26,814 nucleotides of DNA from a virus. The notes below the pieces were generated by a model. The model did no database searches, was not told the origin of the DNA, and worked only from the letters and a program-made list of their open reading frames with translations. A program made the translations under genes and the position numbers. How positions within the stretch are numbered: the stretch's first letter is position 1; each line of letters opens with the position of its first letter. Below, piece by piece: positions 412 to 23,555 of the stretch. Where the stretch lies: the IMG/VR virus record IMGVR_UViG_3300034111_000785, positions 1 to 26,814 of that record; one strand, written 5' to 3'.

Positions 412-415
<4 letters not shown>
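272..415 (+). CDS. small Cys-containing protein (47 aa)
   Basis: The ATG at 272 overlaps the upstream stop (ATGA), and the 47-residue frame ends with TAA at 413-415. It starts with MKPPPVTCTLCG and contains Cys8-x2-Cys11, then Cys24 and His30 further on, so a small zinc ribbon is plausible. Cys42 lies near the C-terminus. The stop overlaps that of the convergent glycosyltransferase gene. The frame is short, so evidence that it is real rests on the coupled start and the CxxC motif. Function unknown; it could be a small DNA-, RNA- or protein-binding factor. Confidence 0.45.
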
Positions 416-2980
<2,565 letters not shown>

Positions 2981-15976: not shown

Positions 15977-16244
15977 CCAATTCCTAACCCGTCACGCCGA
16001 GCAATGGCAGGTGCTTCGCCGCGACCCGATGTGGCGCGACCTCATCGAAACCATTCGCACTTTCGACCCGTGCCGCGCCATGCCAGCAGTGACCGCCAAG
16101 GACGCCACTGAGAACACACAACACCTTCTGGGGCGCATCGCCGGCTTCAATCTCGCCGTCAACGTCATCACGGCGCTGGAGCCGGGGCCGCAGCACGTCA
16201 ATTTGCAAGCAACATACCAACCCGAAGAAACCACAGATGCCTGA
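15966..16244 (+). CDS. small hypothetical protein with TTG start (92 aa)
   Basis: The frame is open from 15843, but reading from there runs through the middle of the previous gene and gives unnatural sequence (RRTGSCTRK). The TTG at 15966 gives MPPDQFLTRHAEQWQVLRRD and overlaps the preceding gene by 11 nt. The remaining 92 residues form two to three helices and include NTQHLLGRIAGFNLAVNVI. Its end overlaps the scaffold start by 8 nt. This is the size and place of small head proteins seen in several podovirus clusters, but no family is recognised. The start choice is uncertain. Confidence 0.52.
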   Translation: MPPDQFLTRHAEQWQVLRRDPMWRDLIETIRTFDPCRAMPAVTAKDATENTQHLLGRIAGFNLAVNVITALEPGPQHVNLQATYQPEETTDA

Positions 16245-17313
16245 TACCGAAACCCAAGAACCTCCTGTCGCCGATGTGTCGCAAGTCGCGGCCATTTTCG
16301 ACAAGATATTTGAAAAAGACCCCAACGCGCTGCCAATTCTGGTCGGCGAAGAACCGCCCGTAGTGGCGCAAGTCACGCAAACCGAACCGCCGAAGGAACC
16401 GGAGGCGAAACCGGAGGCGAAAGTCTCGGCTGAGGACTTCCCGGAAACCCTGCCAAACGAAGGGCGCGGAGACAAGTGGAAGCAGTTTCGCAAGGCCCAC
16501 GAGGAAACGAAAAAGGAGCTACTGGCGCTCAAGGCGGAGCACGAACAGTTTGGAGCAACGCGGGCGGAACGCGACGAACTGAAAGCGCGCACCGCCGAGT
16601 ATGAGGCGAGGATTGCCAAGCTGTCCGAAGTGGACAGCATTGCGCGACTTGAGAACGACCCTGACTTTCAATCGAAGTATGTTGCCAAGCGAGAGCAGGC
16701 GGTCGGCAAGCTGAAAGAGCTGGCCGGATATTCCGACATTGAACCGGAGGCGCTGCTTGGCGTCCTGTCCAAGACAGGAAAGGAACGATTCGCCGCTCTG
16801 GAAAGCGTTCTGGAGTTTGCGCCGTCCGTTCTCAAGACGAAGATCGCCGCGCTGGTTGACCAAGTGGAGGGCATTGACGAGGATCGTCGTGCCGAGCTGT
16901 CCAAGGCGCAGGAATCGCTGACCAAACGCCAGCAGGAACGGCAGGCGAGAGAGGCGGAGCAGCAGGCGCAATTCCAGAAGCACGCCAGCGAAGCCTTTAC
17001 GCGCACGGCGGCAAGTCTTGCCAAGGAGCTTGGCATTGACGAGGCGACGATTACCAAAGCCCGCGAGTTCTACGAAAAGAACAGCGACCTCGAAGCGGCT
17101 TCCCGCGTCATCCTGAAATCGTTTGCGGCAGACGGTGCGCTTGGCAAGGCGAGCGAATCGGCCAAGAAGATTGCGGAACTGGAAAGCGAACTTGCGAAGT
17201 ATCGCGAGTCGTCTCCGGGCATTTCAAGCGGTGGCGCGACTACCGCTGTGCCGAAGGAAATGGACTTCATATCAGCCATCCGTGCGGGCGCGAAGGACGC
17301 CCGAATAATCTGA
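16237..17313 (+). CDS. capsid scaffolding-type protein
   Basis: A 358-aa protein starting at ATG 16237 with an 8-nt overlap. The N-terminal 75 residues are acidic and Pro-rich and probably flexible (TEPPKEPEAKPEAKVSAEDF). Residues about 80-130 and 215-260 are heptad-rich helices, and the extreme C-terminus is short and basic (SAIRAGAKDARII). This pattern of a disordered start, long coiled coils and a basic C-terminal capsid-binding tip is characteristic of phage scaffolding proteins that template procapsid assembly and leave before DNA entry. Position between portal and capsid supports it. In this phage three sugar-modification-type genes separate it from the capsid gene. Confidence 0.72.
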   Translation: MPDTETQEPPVADVSQVAAIFDKIFEKDPNALPILVGEEPPVVAQVTQTEPPKEPEAKPEAKVSAEDFPETLPNEGRGDKWKQFRKAHEETKKELLALKAEHEQFGATRAERDELKARTAEYEARIAKLSEVDSIARLENDPDFQSKYVAKREQAVGKLKELAGYSDIEPEALLGVLSKTGKERFAALESVLEFAPSVLKTKIAALVDQVEGIDEDRRAELSKAQESLTKRQQERQAREAEQQAQFQKHASEAFTRTAASLAKELGIDEATITKAREFYEKNSDLEAASRVILKSFAADGALGKASESAKKIAELESELAKYRESSPGISSGGATTAVPKEMDFISAIRAGAKDARII

Positions 17314-17314
17314 T

Positions 17315-18337
17315 ATGCTCTGCGTTCTAAGCATCTGCCACAAGGAGGCGCAGACGGCGCTAAAGCTGGCGCAATGGATTCGTGAGCTTGGCGGTGTCGG
17401 CAACCACGAGTGCTTGCTATCAGTCAATCAGACGATGGCGAGCGCCAAGCTGCACGAGCCAATCATGGACGAGCTGAAAGCGGCGTTCCGTGTGGTGACG
17501 TTCTACGTGCAATCGCCGGAGGACGAGCGACCGGGACCACCGCAGATGCCGCACGTCTATTCAGCCAACAACGCCTTTATCCGGGTGAACAAGGATGTCA
17601 TCGACGACCATTCCGACACGCCGTATTTCTGGCTGGAAGGCGACGCTATTCCGCTGGTGTCCGATTGGCTGGACCGCATCCAGACTGAATACTTCGCCGC
17701 CGGAAAACCGTTCATGGGCGCTCGCGTGATTTATCCGAACACGCCGGAGCACATGAGCGGAGTGGCGGTTTATCGCGCCATCGGCAGGAACGCGCCGGAC
17801 TACGTGATGGCTCAAAACAACGCTTGGGACGTTGTGGCCGCGTCGCAGATACTTCCAAAGGCGCATTTCACAGGACTCATTCAGCACGATTGGAAAGCTG
17901 AGCCGTTCAATTCGCAGGAAGACATGGCGCGGATTCGTTCCGGGGTGGTTGTCTATCATCAGTGCAAGGATGGATCGCTGATTGACCGACTGCGCGAATC
18001 GCGGGGTGGTGTAGCGACAACACGCTCCGTTCATCACGGGGAGATCGCCGGTTTGAATCCGGCCCCCGCTACTAACCCGGACGTAGCTGCACTGCTCGCC
18101 GAAATAGCATCATTGAAGTCCGATTACAAAGATGCCATTGCTAATTTGGAAATGCAGCGGTCCGCGTTTGCTAAATTCACTGCTTCACGGACGCAAGTTA
18201 TTGTTTCGCCAGAAAAGTCAACTTTGCCTAGTCGGAAACGAAAAACCAAAAAGCCCGACACGCGCACTCCTGAGCAAATTCAAGCAGCCAAGGACCGAAT
18301 GGCCAAGGCGCGGGCCGGGCGGAAGGTGGTGGCGTGA
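17315..18337 (+). CDS. GT-A-type glycosyltransferase-like protein with basic tail
   Basis: A 340-aa protein starting at ATG 17315, one base after the scaffold stop. Residues 1-60 look like the nucleotide-binding half of a GT-A fold (MLCVLSICHKEAQTALKLAQ). Residues 106-114 read WLEGDAIPL, an acidic strand end equivalent to the DxD metal site. Later come HFTGLIQHDWK and VYHQCKDGS, which may form the acceptor side. Residues about 252-290 are a probable coiled coil. Residues about 300-340 are strongly basic (SRKRKTKKPDTRTPEQIQ and on), not a normal part of glycosyltransferases, and could dock to capsid or DNA. The family is recognised by pattern only. Likely works with the next two genes. Confidence 0.68.
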   Translation: MLCVLSICHKEAQTALKLAQWIRELGGVGNHECLLSVNQTMASAKLHEPIMDELKAAFRVVTFYVQSPEDERPGPPQMPHVYSANNAFIRVNKDVIDDHSDTPYFWLEGDAIPLVSDWLDRIQTEYFAAGKPFMGARVIYPNTPEHMSGVAVYRAIGRNAPDYVMAQNNAWDVVAASQILPKAHFTGLIQHDWKAEPFNSQEDMARIRSGVVVYHQCKDGSLIDRLRESRGGVATTRSVHHGEIAGLNPAPATNPDVAALLAEIASLKSDYKDAIANLEMQRSAFAKFTASRTQVIVSPEKSTLPSRKRKTKKPDTRTPEQIQAAKDRMAKARAGRKVVA

Positions 18338-19035
18338 CTGTCGATCTGGTCATCAAGTCGTATCCAGCCGACTACCCGTGGCTGGCGTATGCTCTGAGGT
18401 CACTTCAAAAGTTCGCCACAGGATTCAATGACATCATCGTTCTTCTTCCAAAAAGTTCTCCGCTAAACCTTACGGCGGAAAAGGTGGTGTATCTTGACGC
18501 GCCGGAAGGGTATTTGCAGCAGCAGGTCGCCAAGCTGAACGCCGACCGGCACACGCGGGCGGAATACATCGTTCACTGGGACAGTGACATGATCGCAACT
18601 GCGCCATTCACGCCGGGCATCTTCTTTCACAACGGCAAACCAGCTTGGACAATGACGCCGTGGGGCGACATGCCGGGACAGGTGGAAAAAAAAGCGTGGT
18701 ATCATGTCATGGCGAAGTGCCTGCAAGAATGTCCGCCATACGAGTTCATGCGGAAGTGCGCCATTATCGCGCCGCGCTCGATTTACCAGGAGTTCAGGGA
18801 TTTCATCATGGAAACGCACGGAGCTTCAATGGAAGCCTACGTGATGAACCAACCGGGCCACGAGTTCAGCGAATACAACTGCATTGGATTCTTCGCGTGG
18901 CTCAAGCATCGCGACAAATTCCACTGGCACGACACGACCAATGGCGGCGTTCCGACTTGGCCGTGGAAGCAGTTCTGGAGCTGGGGTGGATTGACGCCGG
19001 AAATCAAAGCTGAAATCGAAACGCTACTGAAATGA
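18334..19035 (+). CDS. glycosyltransferase-like protein (DxD)
   Basis: A 233-aa protein starting with GTG at 18334, overlapping the upstream stop (GTGA). The N-terminal MTVDLVIKSYPADYPWLAYA opens a GT-A-like fold. Residues 80-86 (VHWDSDM) contain the DSD metal/nucleotide-sugar motif, followed by a conserved-looking aromatic region (GKPAWTMTPWGD). It resembles small family-2/DUF6492-like transferases by recollection. Predicted to be cytoplasmic with no membrane segment. Together with the neighbouring glycosyltransferase and FkbM methyltransferase it forms a translationally coupled three-gene set placed directly before the capsid gene. Acceptor unknown. Confidence 0.75.
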   Translation: MTVDLVIKSYPADYPWLAYALRSLQKFATGFNDIIVLLPKSSPLNLTAEKVVYLDAPEGYLQQQVAKLNADRHTRAEYIVHWDSDMIATAPFTPGIFFHNGKPAWTMTPWGDMPGQVEKKAWYHVMAKCLQECPPYEFMRKCAIIAPRSIYQEFRDFIMETHGASMEAYVMNQPGHEFSEYNCIGFFAWLKHRDKFHWHDTTNGGVPTWPWKQFWSWGGLTPEIKAEIETLLK

Positions 19036-19754
19036 ACACCGAAATACCGGACGACTCAATAACCGCCAATCCGAACGTGGAACTACTGCCGATTGGACAG
19101 CGCGGTGTGGCCGTCATTCGCGGGGATAAGTTTGTCACGGAATGGGTGCGAGAGACGCAAAAGCTCTGTCACGACGATTGGCTGGCCGATCAGATGCGGC
19201 GCTACCTGAAACCGGGCGACGTAGCCTTGGACATCGGGGCGAACATCGGGCAATCGACATATCCGATGCTGGCGGCTGGGGCGTTCGTGCACGCCTTTGA
19301 AATCGACGCCGATTGCTGCGCGTGCATCCTGCACAACTGCGCTGGCGGCACGATGGAACTGCGCGGCGGCGTGGCCGTTGGCGACGACCCCAACGCCTTT
19401 GTCGGCTATACGCGAGACGCCAACAACGCCGGAGCCAGCCATGTCCAGGCCGGAACGCAATACCCGGTGCTGACCATTGACGAACTGGACTTCCAAAAAA
19501 TGGCGTTCATCAAAATCGACGTTGAGGGAAGCGAAGTCGCGGTGCTGCGCGGAGCCGCCAAGACGATTTCCAGAACCAAGCCGACAATGTTCATTGAGGT
19601 CAACCGTGGGGCGTTGGAGCGGCTGGGTGAATCAGAGGACTCGCTTTGGGCGCAACTGGAGTCGATGGGATACGACGTGGCGGTGGCGCAGGACAACTGC
19701 GAGCGCGGCGACGCGCAATACGACGTGATAGCACGCCCAAAACTTTCCATTTGA
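19032..19754 (+). CDS. FkbM-family SAM-dependent methyltransferase
   Basis: A 240-aa protein starting at ATG 19032, overlapping the upstream stop (ATGA). The SAM-binding loop is VALDIGANIGQS (residues 64-75), with acidic Glu90/Asp92 after strand 2. The FkbM signature is FIKIDVEGSEVAVLRGA (159-175), and IEVNRGALERLGESED lies further on. FkbM enzymes O-methylate hydroxyl groups, commonly on sugars, and are frequent in polysaccharide and glycoprotein loci. Here it closes a set of two glycosyltransferase-like genes, so methylation capping a phage-made glycan is the natural reading. Its stop codon TGA lies inside the TTGACT element of control site 3. Confidence 0.9.
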   Translation: MNTEIPDDSITANPNVELLPIGQRGVAVIRGDKFVTEWVRETQKLCHDDWLADQMRRYLKPGDVALDIGANIGQSTYPMLAAGAFVHAFEIDADCCACILHNCAGGTMELRGGVAVGDDPNAFVGYTRDANNAGASHVQAGTQYPVLTIDELDFQKMAFIKIDVEGSEVAVLRGAAKTISRTKPTMFIEVNRGALERLGESEDSLWAQLESMGYDVAVAQDNCERGDAQYDVIARPKLSI

Positions 19755-19937: not shown

Positions 19938-21149
19938 ATGCCTCTTACTACAGCAGACTGCAACGCACTATCCGACTTGTTCACCCGCGAAAGCGGGCGC
20001 ATCGCCCCTACGCTTCAAAAGCGCATGACGGGAAAATCCCTGTTCCTCGACCGCATCAAGCGCGGCCCGTTTCCAGACGGCATGGGCACGACCATTTCCG
20101 TGCTCACCGTGGAACGCTCGTTCACCACTGACGCCGACGACGCCGCATGGACGGCGGTTACGGCATCCACCGGCACCGGCAACGGCACCTGCTTGCCGAC
20201 ATCATCGGCGCTGACCTTTGGCCAAACCCCGCGCACCTTCGCCCTGTATCGCAAGGCGTTGGAAAGCCCCGACATCTGCTTGGAAGACCTTCGCACGGAC
20301 TTCCAGATCAACCAGCAGCTCGGCGCTTCCATCGACTCGCTGACCGGCGCAGTTCAGTGGGAACTCGAAAAGCACGCCATCAACCAATACATCGCGCTGA
20401 TGCCGCCTGGCAACATCCTGAACGTCAACTCCGCGATGACGCCCAACGTCACTACCGGCGTGTTTGTTTCTGGACCGCCTCCAACATCGCCGCTGACTCA
20501 GGGCGTGCTTGATGCCGAGTATGTCAAAATCATGCGCGACAGCTTCGGAGACGGTGCCGCTGGCCGCGCTGGTGCCGCCTACGTGTTCACGCTGGTTTGC
20601 TCGCCGGAAACGTCGCGCAACCTCATCAAGCAGAACGCCGACATTCGGCAGGACTGGCGCTACGCCTTCATGGGCGACAAGATGGAAAGCCCGCTTTTGC
20701 AGGGCTACGGCGTTGACCGCAGCTACGGCAACTACGCTCACTACATCGTGCCGCACATGCCCCGCTACGACCTTGTGGCGAACGTGATGACCCGGCGCAA
20801 CTACTGGACGCAATCCAGCACCACCAAGGGATACAAATACGAGGTCAGCTCCACGTATCTCGCCGCTGCCTACGAAGTCTCGATCATCTTCAACGAGAAG
20901 GTCTATGAATGGCTTGTGCCCGGCTCGATCAACGCTCCCGGCGGAACCACTCGGTTCAACACGCCCGACTACTTCCCGGCGTCTGTGACGTGGAAAAACA
21001 TCCCGGATCGTGTTTGCAACCCGGACGGAACCATTGGTTTCTTCCGCGCTGTGCTCGCATCGGCGTCCATGCCGGTGCATCCCGAATACGGTCGCGTGTT
21101 CCTGCACCTGCGCTGCGGCCCGTCGCTTGACCAGCAAGCCTGCGACTAA
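19938..21149 (+). CDS. major capsid protein
   Basis: A 403-aa protein starting at ATG 19938; the leader ends in AAAAACCTACTTCT with no Shine-Dalgarno. It forms the icosahedral shell (expected HK97 fold). Support comes from its place after the scaffold, its own control site and a strong terminator right after it, its typical length, and its composition: an N-terminal helical arm, a long helix near residues 125-155 (ASIDSLTGAVQWELEKHAIN), and a beta-rich C-terminal half with many aromatic residues. No Cys-rich or enzymatic motifs occur. It contains many Thr/Ser (for example residues 60-95), which would be available as O-glycan acceptors if the upstream cassette acts on it. Confidence 0.82.
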   Translation: MPLTTADCNALSDLFTRESGRIAPTLQKRMTGKSLFLDRIKRGPFPDGMGTTISVLTVERSFTTDADDAAWTAVTASTGTGNGTCLPTSSALTFGQTPRTFALYRKALESPDICLEDLRTDFQINQQLGASIDSLTGAVQWELEKHAINQYIALMPPGNILNVNSAMTPNVTTGVFVSGPPPTSPLTQGVLDAEYVKIMRDSFGDGAAGRAGAAYVFTLVCSPETSRNLIKQNADIRQDWRYAFMGDKMESPLLQGYGVDRSYGNYAHYIVPHMPRYDLVANVMTRRNYWTQSSTTKGYKYEVSSTYLAAAYEVSIIFNEKVYEWLVPGSINAPGGTTRFNTPDYFPASVTWKNIPDRVCNPDGTIGFFRAVLASASMPVHPEYGRVFLHLRCGPSLDQQACD

Positions 21150-21212: not shown

Positions 21213-23114
21213 ATGGCGACCATCACCGTAACGACTTACTGGAACATGGATTCGCGGAAGTGGACGAGCGATCTGCTTGGCACCACGGAGCAAGGACCGT
21301 TGGCAGGCATTGTCCAAGGCGACATTGTGAAGTTCGCCGTGCGGTTCGTGCAAGGCGGCGTAGCGGTGGCGCTGACTGCCCCGGTCTTCACCGCATCTGG
21401 CATAAAGGCGCAGAACGATTTCACCGGCGGCTACCTCATCCAGCTTTCCGCTCCTGTTCTGAGCGACACCACGCTCTACACATTCACGGTCAGCCCGCTG
21501 AACAGCGCGCAACTGAACACGTTTTTGCAGACGTATAGGAATACGTGGTGTGCGCTGGAACTTTATGACAGCGCCAACGGCATCCTGACGACGCCACTTG
21601 AACTGCAAATCACGCCGGGATACAGCCTGAGCGGGACGCCGACGGACAATGTGGATGGCGTAATTGTCGTCGCCGCCGGAAAGACCGTCACATTCCCGCT
21701 AACGCTCACGTTCCCGAGCGCGGCGGGGACGAATGGACAGCAGCTTACGCTTTCCAACTCGACAACGGGATTGCTCGAATGGGCTGCGAGCGGCAGCAGC
21801 GGTATCACCATCGGCACAACGACCGCCAACGGCACGGCTGGGCAGGTGCTTTACACGGACGGCAGCTTGGTGCAGGCGTATGCCATCAGCGGCACCGGCA
21901 ACGTGGCGATGACGACAAGCCCGCAGTTCACCACGCCGAGCTTGGGCGCGGCCACGGCGGCGAGCATCAATGGCATGGTCATTAGCTCATCGTCTGGAAT
22001 TGAGATTTATCCTCCCGGCAGTCCCTCTATTCCTTCAATTTTGATGTTAAACGCAGCAAATACTGCTGGAAGCATCAACACTAGCGGAGGGGCATCCGCT
22101 AGTGGCGGCAGCATAAACACCAGCAACGGCGGCGGCTACGTGAAAACTAGCAGCAGCGGAGGCAACATCGACACCAGCAGTAGCGGTGGAGCCCTTAATA
22201 CCAGCATCGGCGGAGGCTACATCGACACCAGCAGCGGCGGAGGCAATATCGACACCACCGGCAGCGGCAGCATCCAGTTTGGCTTTGCTGCCAATCGCAT
22301 CACACTGGTCGGCACGGCTGGCAGCAACGGCAAAACGCAAACCCTGCAAAACGCCACCGGCACCGTCGCGCTGACCAGCGACATCACCGGCGGCACGCTG
22401 GCGGGGAGCTTCACCACGCTGGCGGTCAACGGGAAAAGCCTGACGCTCGGCGCAAACTTAACCACCAGCGGCACCGACCTCCCGACGTTCGCTTTCCCAT
22501 CGGCGGCAACGGCGCGCACCTACACCTTCCCGACGACCACTGCGACGCTGGCGCGCACCGATGCGGCGCAGACGCTCACCGCGACGCAAACCATCTCCGA
22601 ATCAACGGACAGGAACGGAGCTGCAGCAGGGGCATCACTGACCATTAGCGGGGCGGCATCCGTAGGGCCAGCCTTTAAGATGTCCACCACTGCGGCAGGC
22701 ACGTTTAGTGTATTTGTCCATGCCACAAACGGGCATACATACGTCGGCACAGCATCGGGTTCGCTTATTGTGACGAGCGGAGTCAACAGCAGTGGATCAA
22801 CCATGTTCTCGGTCACAAGTGGCGGCGCTTTTTCCATACCTGGCACGCTCGCCGTCACCGGAGCCACCACGCTGACCGGACTGCTTACGGCCAATGGCGG
22901 AATCACACTTGGAGACGCGCAGAACATCGCGGTCAACACCACGACCGGCACGAAGATTGGCACGGCTACCACGCAGAAGATCGGATTCTGGAATGTCACT
23001 CCAGTAGTGCAACCAGCCGCCGTGGCGGACAGTAGCGGCGTGCTGATGGACCTGACCACGCAATTCAACGCACTACTCGCCAGACTCCGATCCGCCGGAA
23101 TAATCGCCACCTAA
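21213..23114 (+). CDS. tail fibre / receptor-binding-type protein
   Basis: A 633-aa protein starting at ATG 21213, with leader GAAAACCT and no Shine-Dalgarno. Residues 1 to about 135 form a beta-rich N-terminal domain that could attach to the particle. Residues 140-295 are Thr/Ser/Gly-rich. Residues 297-350 are six 9-residue repeats of a GGxhxTS type. Residues about 360-560 are Thr/Ala-rich strands typical of beta-helical fibre shafts. The C-terminal segment GTKIGTATTQKIGFWN (about 592-607), followed by a conserved-looking helix (DLTTQFNALLARLRSAGII), resembles the end of many metagenomic phage fibres. No enzymatic domain is visible. It probably binds the host surface. Confidence 0.8.
   Translation: MATITVTTYWNMDSRKWTSDLLGTTEQGPLAGIVQGDIVKFAVRFVQGGVAVALTAPVFTASGIKAQNDFTGGYLIQLSAPVLSDTTLYTFTVSPLNSAQLNTFLQTYRNTWCALELYDSANGILTTPLELQITPGYSLSGTPTDNVDGVIVVAAGKTVTFPLTLTFPSAAGTNGQQLTLSNSTTGLLEWAASGSSGITIGTTTANGTAGQVLYTDGSLVQAYAISGTGNVAMTTSPQFTTPSLGAATAASINGMVISSSSGIEIYPPGSPSIPSILMLNAANTAGSINTSGGASASGGSINTSNGGGYVKTSSSGGNIDTSSSGGALNTSIGGGYIDTSSGGGNIDTTGSGSIQFGFAANRITLVGTAGSNGKTQTLQNATGTVALTSDITGGTLAGSFTTLAVNGKSLTLGANLTTSGTDLPTFAFPSAATARTYTFPTTTATLARTDAAQTLTATQTISESTDRNGAAAGASLTISGAASVGPAFKMSTTAAGTFSVFVHATNGHTYVGTASGSLIVTSGVNSSGSTMFSVTSGGAFSIPGTLAVTGATTLTGLLTANGGITLGDAQNIAVNTTTGTKIGTATTQKIGFWNVTPVVQPAAVADSSGVLMDLTTQFNALLARLRSAGIIAT
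22101..22262 (+). repeat. six 27-bp (9-aa) tandem repeats in the fibre gene
   Basis: The consensus unit is (S/G)GGxhxTSx with h = I, V or L, for example SGGNIDTSS and GGGYIDTSS. Repeats are imperfect at DNA level but hold the 27-bp register exactly. A related partial unit (GSINTSGGA) precedes them. This would suit a beta-solenoid or polyglycine-type receptor-contact region. Confidence 0.82.
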
Positions 23115-23120
23115 AAACCA

Positions 23121-23555
23121 ATGAAAGACCTATTCACAATTCAAACCGAATCCGGCCAGCTATGGCTCGACATCAAAGCGCAGCTTGACGCGAAAGACGC
23201 GCAACTCGCCGACCAAGCCACTGAAACGAACCTCGCGCGCCAAGCTGCCACCGACGCTCACGCTGCCGCGCTGGCCGCGCTGGCAGACCAGCACGCCGCA
23301 GCTCTCGCACAAGCCGCAACCGACCAAGCCGCCGCTGTGGAGGCCGCGAAGCTCGCAATCCAAACCAACCTTGACGCGCTCGTGACTGCCGCCGAAACCG
23401 CACACGCCAGTGGCGACTTGGATGCCGTCGCAGCGGTCATCGCGCAAGCCCGCTCCTACACCACCGCAGCGCGCCGGGCGAAGATCGAGGCAGACCTCGC
23501 CGCCGCACAGGCCGCTGCCGCCGCACACGCCGCCGCGCTCGCCGCTCTCGCATGA
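23121..23555 (+). CDS. Ala-rich coiled-coil protein (144 aa)
   Basis: ATG 23121 follows the fibre stop by six bases (leader CTAAAAACCA). After a short N-terminal segment (MKDLFTIQTESGQLWLDIKA) almost the whole protein is one Ala-rich helix with heptads, and about 40 percent of residues after position 45 are Ala. No Cys or membrane segment is present. It could be a trimerising or chaperone-like partner of the fibre, or a spacer that pairs with the coiled coil of the next protein, to which it is coupled by ATGA. Function unknown. Confidence 0.65.
   Translation: MKDLFTIQTESGQLWLDIKAQLDAKDAQLADQATETNLARQAATDAHAAALAALADQHAAALAQAATDQAAAVEAAKLAIQTNLDALVTAAETAHASGDLDAVAAVIAQARSYTTAARRAKIEADLAAAQAAAAAHAAALAALA

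Follow-up and report, generated by a model that had tools for sequence, protein, structure and literature searches.

A candidate virion-glycosylation operon among the head genes of a virus whose head-gene order resembles that of N4, compared with cluster O mycobacteriophages

Predicted sugar-transfer genes among phage head genes

Virion glycosylation in phages has been documented mainly in mycobacteriophages. Phages of the Corndog cluster carry an O-methyltransferase and glycosyltransferases between the portal and protease genes (PMC4351075), and glycosylated proteins have been reported for Corndog, Che8 and Myrna (PMC12363180; see also PMC12619734). Two cluster O genomes were used for the comparison with Corndog, those of Firecracker and of Catdawg, the sister of Corndog, and the gene order of Catdawg, read directly, displays the O-methyltransferase and the glycosyltransferases between portal and protease. 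The DNA analysed here (the window), a virus record, spans 26,814 bases and has no end repeats. It has in common with Corndog gp35-gp38 and Catdawg gp33-gp36, which lie between portal and capsid, a sugar-type O-methyltransferase and several tandem glycosyltransferases inside the head genes. The Corndog virion has been reported to be glycosylated. The two systems also differ in several respects: the methyltransferase of cluster O is of the TylF type and that of the window of the FkbM type; the cluster O genes are located at the portal-protease position while the cassette of the window lies between scaffold and capsid; and fused and exchangeable versions occur in the lineage of the window.

On the plus strand of the window, the large terminase gene is followed by a portal-like gene, a scaffold-like gene, three overlapping genes and a 403-aa capsid-like gene. 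The terminase is backed by a PHROG profile (phrog_2, 3.8e-12), and portal, scaffold and major capsid gave no PHROG or PDB profile match. The labels of these three genes rest on gene order and synteny: the scaffold-like gene (16237..17313, plus strand) has same-position homologues with 23-26% identity in relatives, and the 403-aa product of 19938..21149 (plus strand), presumed to be the major capsid protein and a candidate acceptor, likewise has homologues at the same position. This order resembles that of portal, small gene, gp57 and gp56 in phage N4. The capsid alignment with N4 gp56 is a weak collinear match (E 0.012) and only suggestive of a likeness, and comparison of the N4 portal and N4 gp57 with their counterparts in the window returned nothing. 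Searches of phage records with GT1, GT2, portal and capsid gave no match, and the terminase matches in those records were too weak for placing the phage.

The preliminary description of this DNA had pointed to a coupled three-gene cassette between scaffold and capsid, two genes that it regarded as normally adjacent. The three ORFs are indeed consecutive, with overlaps of 4 bases (17315-18337, 18334-19035 and 19032-19754), the flanking genes being labelled by gene order. The adjacency of scaffold and capsid proved to be the norm within the lineage of the window, where 18 related contigs show a spacing of 79-366 bp against 2.6 kb in the window.

Predicted enzymes of the cassette

The first gene (GT1; 17315..18337, plus strand; 340 aa) is composed of a glycosyltransferase core of approximately residues 1-230, followed by a disordered linker, a coiled coil and a basic C-terminal tail. 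Its AlphaFold2 model (pLDDT 84.7) has a confident core, and the top PDB matches of this model in Foldseek are all GT-A enzymes of the GT8/GT25 type (E about 1e-6), the best solved structures being LgtC, glycogenin, COLGALT1 and XXYLT1. GT1 shares the fold and an acidic metal-binding motif with GT8/GT25-type enzymes such as LgtC, glycogenin and COLGALT1, but identity is 10-15%, the TM-score does not exceed 0.46 on query length, and no Pfam family was assigned across 20 members. Many viral matches of GT1 are annotated as glycosyltransferases. The EGD and DSD motifs highlighted in the preliminary description were borne out as DxD-like acidic motifs by conservation: in GT1, E108-x-D110 is invariant in 20/20 homologues, as is H215, and in GT2 homologues D85 is invariant and D83 is conserved in at least 90%. 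GT1 models as a GT-A-fold glycosyltransferase-like protein with predicted catalysis. Its basic tail (RMAKARAGRK-like; 18263-18334 in the window) is conserved at the C-terminus and recurs at the end of a GT1-GT2 fusion in contig L025, so that it would mark the end of the enzyme unit. A search for the motif in the other proteins of all loci located it only in GT1 or its fusions.

The second gene (GT2; 18334..19035, plus strand; 233 aa) passes the cut-off of the DUF6492 family (PF20102, 25.2 bits against 22.9). Its AlphaFold2 model (pLDDT 90.9) matches GNPTAB, CpsY and the blood-group enzymes GTA/GTB in the PDB with E values of about 1e-8, the top Foldseek matches again being all GT-A enzymes. 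Structure prediction and fold search with both proteins, as proposed in the preliminary description, therefore gave models of the GT-A class, and the refutation envisaged there did not occur. Stealth-type sugar-phosphate transferases (GNPTAB, CpsY) are among the best structure matches of GT2, and DUF6492 is its above-cut-off family; however, Stealth_CR2 scores 14.3 bits in GT2 of the window, far under the cut-off of 39.4, and GTA/GTB fit nearly equally well. Because weak Stealth_CR2 matches appear in 13/19 GT2 homologues, a phosphotransferase reaction by this Stealth-like protein is possible. The third gene (19032..19754, plus strand; 240 aa) carries the FkbM signature ascribed to it earlier, with matches to PF05050 (1.2e-16, 61.7 bits, cut-off 22.7) and phrog_8156 (4.1e-21). 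A literature search on FkbM in phage virion glycosylation found nothing relevant.

As in the Corndog/Che8 kind of system, predicted glycosyltransferases, here GT1 and GT2 with a modelled GT-A fold, are encoded among virion structural genes, in this case between scaffold and capsid. At the level of descent, hhalign against three Catdawg transferases gave a best E of 0.009 with a probability below 5%, the part of Catdawg gp36 that could be aligned with GT1 being limited to a short acidic motif. By analogy, the system of the window would work like the Corndog-cluster one, common descent with the Catdawg enzymes being not detectable.

An additional element is nested in the GT1 frame, where a tRNA-Met(CAU)-like cloverleaf was detected at 18000..18072 on the plus strand (ARAGORN; Rfam RF00005, 46.5 bits). 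The segment encodes GT1 residues 234-253, which are disordered in AlphaFold2. A stronger counterpart (54.9 bits in Rfam) occupies the homologous place in L025 (6003-6074), and in L004 (7795-7867), L012 (6677-6752) and L022 (6677-6752) ARAGORN places a tRNA there as well, degenerate and negative in Rfam. Relatives sharing the nested cloverleaf show about 40% protein identity. Third-codon-position identity in the cloverleaf compared with the glycosyltransferase core was 0.71 vs 0.31 in L012 (Fisher p 0.0002), 0.67 vs 0.39 in L022 (p 0.015) and 0.58 vs 0.39 in L025 (p 0.08), three comparisons made with non-independent relatives. The segment thus appears tRNA-Met-like and conserved at the nucleotide level in relatives. 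Nearly all other viral contigs matching the pattern of T-arm plus acceptor have tRNA-Met genes there, mostly outside ORFs. A pattern taken from the nested tRNA hit scattered taxa and pointed to no host. A literature search for tRNAs lying within phage genes found nothing relevant.

Exchange and fusion of the cassette in relatives

Relatives were gathered by scanning viral contigs, which delineated a broad lineage. GT1-GT2 separates scaffold from capsid in 14 contigs, the window among them; one (L002) is near-identical to the window, and the remaining twelve show about 36% terminase and about 25% capsid identity. Among these contigs, FkbM follows GT2 in the window and L002. In the others, GT2 is succeeded by different genes: one product weakly resembles WcbI (E 0.006), another gene is of the O-methyltransferase type, and there are also an NAD-dependent epimerase (6e-10), a C-methyltransferase (PF08484, 1.3e-18) and further ORFs. 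The comparison of presence and absence suggested in the preliminary description reveals the cassette as optional cargo at the scaffold-capsid site, which is empty in the 18 contigs mentioned above. One alternative is that the gap is a tolerant landing site for varied cargo and that the sugar genes are functionally unlinked to the virion. The empty sites fit with such an idea, as do contigs such as L173, L193 and L223 in which the gap is filled by genes without recognised sugar function; nevertheless, the GT1 family adjoins terminase or portal in other lineages, which ties it to the head module as a whole rather than to a single gap, and the fusions described below indicate a dedicated unit, so that this alternative is considered quite improbable.

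In more distant relatives, GT1 adjoins the terminase or sits between portal and capsid, and in L072, whose capsid is 36% identical, GT1, another ORF and FkbM are found between portal and capsid. Because the GT1 family is present at several places of the head module, a simple insertion at a single fixed point does not account for everything. A scan of 30 neighbour genes from the distant GT1 contigs identified five of epimerase/GDP-mannose-dehydratase type (best 2e-137), together with methyltransferases and family-2 glycosyltransferases. Genes resembling nucleotide-sugar epimerases/dehydratases, with a Rossmann start motif, were also observed in the interval that separates scaffold or portal from capsid in three distant members of the lineage (L167 12643-13662, L146 4234-5166 and L150 6069-6971). 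The neighbour set includes a radical SAM protein as well, likely the product of L028 8234-8983, which has a CxxxCxxC-like start and adjoins GT1-GT1-GT2. The content of these islands bears on another alternative, namely that the transferases hypermodify bases of the phage DNA. Phage glycosyltransferases acting in DNA hypermodification are documented (cited in PMC12619734); here, the island genes scanned included no base-modifying partner, the transferases are accompanied by sugar epimerases and methyltransferases, and the genes are located among head genes, so that on the part of the genome covered DNA glycosylation is rated as very improbable.

The physical association of the enzymes is closest in L048, where GT1, GT2 and FkbM are found in that order within one 826-aa ORF. 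In L025, GT1-GT2 constitutes a single ORF of 543 aa, and tandem GT1 domains adjoin GT2 in both L028 and L029. PHROG searches with the genes flanking the L048 fusion, and with L050/L051, gave no match. Because the three domains are fused in that order in L048, there is strong evidence that GT1, GT2 and FkbM of the window would act together as a unit tied to the head genes.

A further possibility is that the enzymes alter the sugars of the host surface, blocking superinfection or changing receptor identity. Modification of the host serotype by phage glycosyltransferases in lysogens has precedent (reviewed in PMC12619734). However, hydropathy analysis detected no transmembrane segments in the three cassette proteins (highest 19-residue hydropathy 1.32), and the cassette contains no membrane-embedded transferase or flippase. 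Besides, the genes overlap one another and in many contigs form part of the late head module, and no GT1 relative, prophage ones included, was found in the bacterial genome contigs searched. Host-surface remodelling is accordingly rated as unlikely. The preliminary description had offered it beside virion glycosylation, and the latter is favoured because of the fusions, the sugar-gene islands in relatives and the lack of membrane segments.

A proposal for particle glycosylation

The best explanation for the cassette, and a fairly probable one, is a virion-glycosylation operon inside the head-gene module. Particle glycosylation fits best because soluble transferases and sugar-tailoring enzymes are linked to late head genes and exchanged among relatives. 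According to this proposal, GT1 and GT2 would be soluble GT-A enzymes co-produced with the scaffold and capsid proteins, and would move sugars from nucleotide sugars onto one of the particle's structural proteins, in all likelihood the neighbouring capsid protein or else a fibre. FkbM would afterwards O-methylate a sugar hydroxyl. The nucleotide sugars would be made by the host in the case of the window phage and partly by the phage in relatives; the cassette of the window contains no gene for nucleotide-sugar synthesis and would therefore depend on host sugars. Among relatives, GT1-GT2 is retained while the genes behind it are exchanged (an epimerase, a C-methyltransferase, further methyltransferases and additional transferase-like genes), so that each phage would display a different sugar. 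The activity of the enzymes, their acceptor, the order in which they act and the benefit, for instance masking of the particle, are all put forward here as predictions. Counted against the proposal are the synteny-only identity of the capsid, the lack of detectable homology with the Catdawg glycosyltransferases and the missing nucleotide-sugar gene.

The leftward glycosyltransferase gene had been included in the preliminary description as a fourth member of the same glycan system. Its family is upheld (412..1140, minus strand; PF00535, Glycos_transf_2, 7.4e-6, which passes the Pfam cut-off), but its share in the pathway of the cassette is not so far. Instead, its start codon overlaps the stop of the adjacent gene (ATGA), an arrangement of translational coupling. 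This neighbour (1137..1898, minus strand), 16 kb from the cassette, ends in a Gly-Pro/Ala-Thr collagen-like repeat and is the candidate acceptor of the leftward enzyme. Four other contigs also have the two genes side by side or overlapping, with variable repeat length. As O-glycosylation of Thr-bearing collagen-like repeats occurs in other bacterial systems, the two genes may represent a second enzyme-acceptor pair.

Downstream of the capsid, a fibre-like gene (21213-23114) and the next gene (23121-23555) are 79% and 100% identical in the L007 and L008 phages, in which the corresponding stretches are L007 16918-19131 and L008 15128-17341 and the capsid is only about 25% identical. The downstream module would therefore move separately from the head genes. 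A Ser/Thr/Gly-rich stretch is present in the fibre-like protein.

A broader and rather unlikely version of the proposal is that of a wide, uncultivated lineage with N4-like head-gene order and a dedicated, fusable head-glycosylation module, in which GT1 would represent an unclassified GT-A family, the Stealth-like GT2 would potentially add a phosphodiester-linked sugar, and swapping of the downstream sugar genes would diversify the capsid glycan in the manner of a serotype. The three-domain fusion of L048 provides a compact one-gene handle for testing with the neighbouring capsid protein. If the proposal of virion glycosylation is true, exchangeable head-linked sugar islands with apparently unrelated enzymes in a large environmental lineage would suggest that glycosylation has evolved more than once in phages and that it diversifies.
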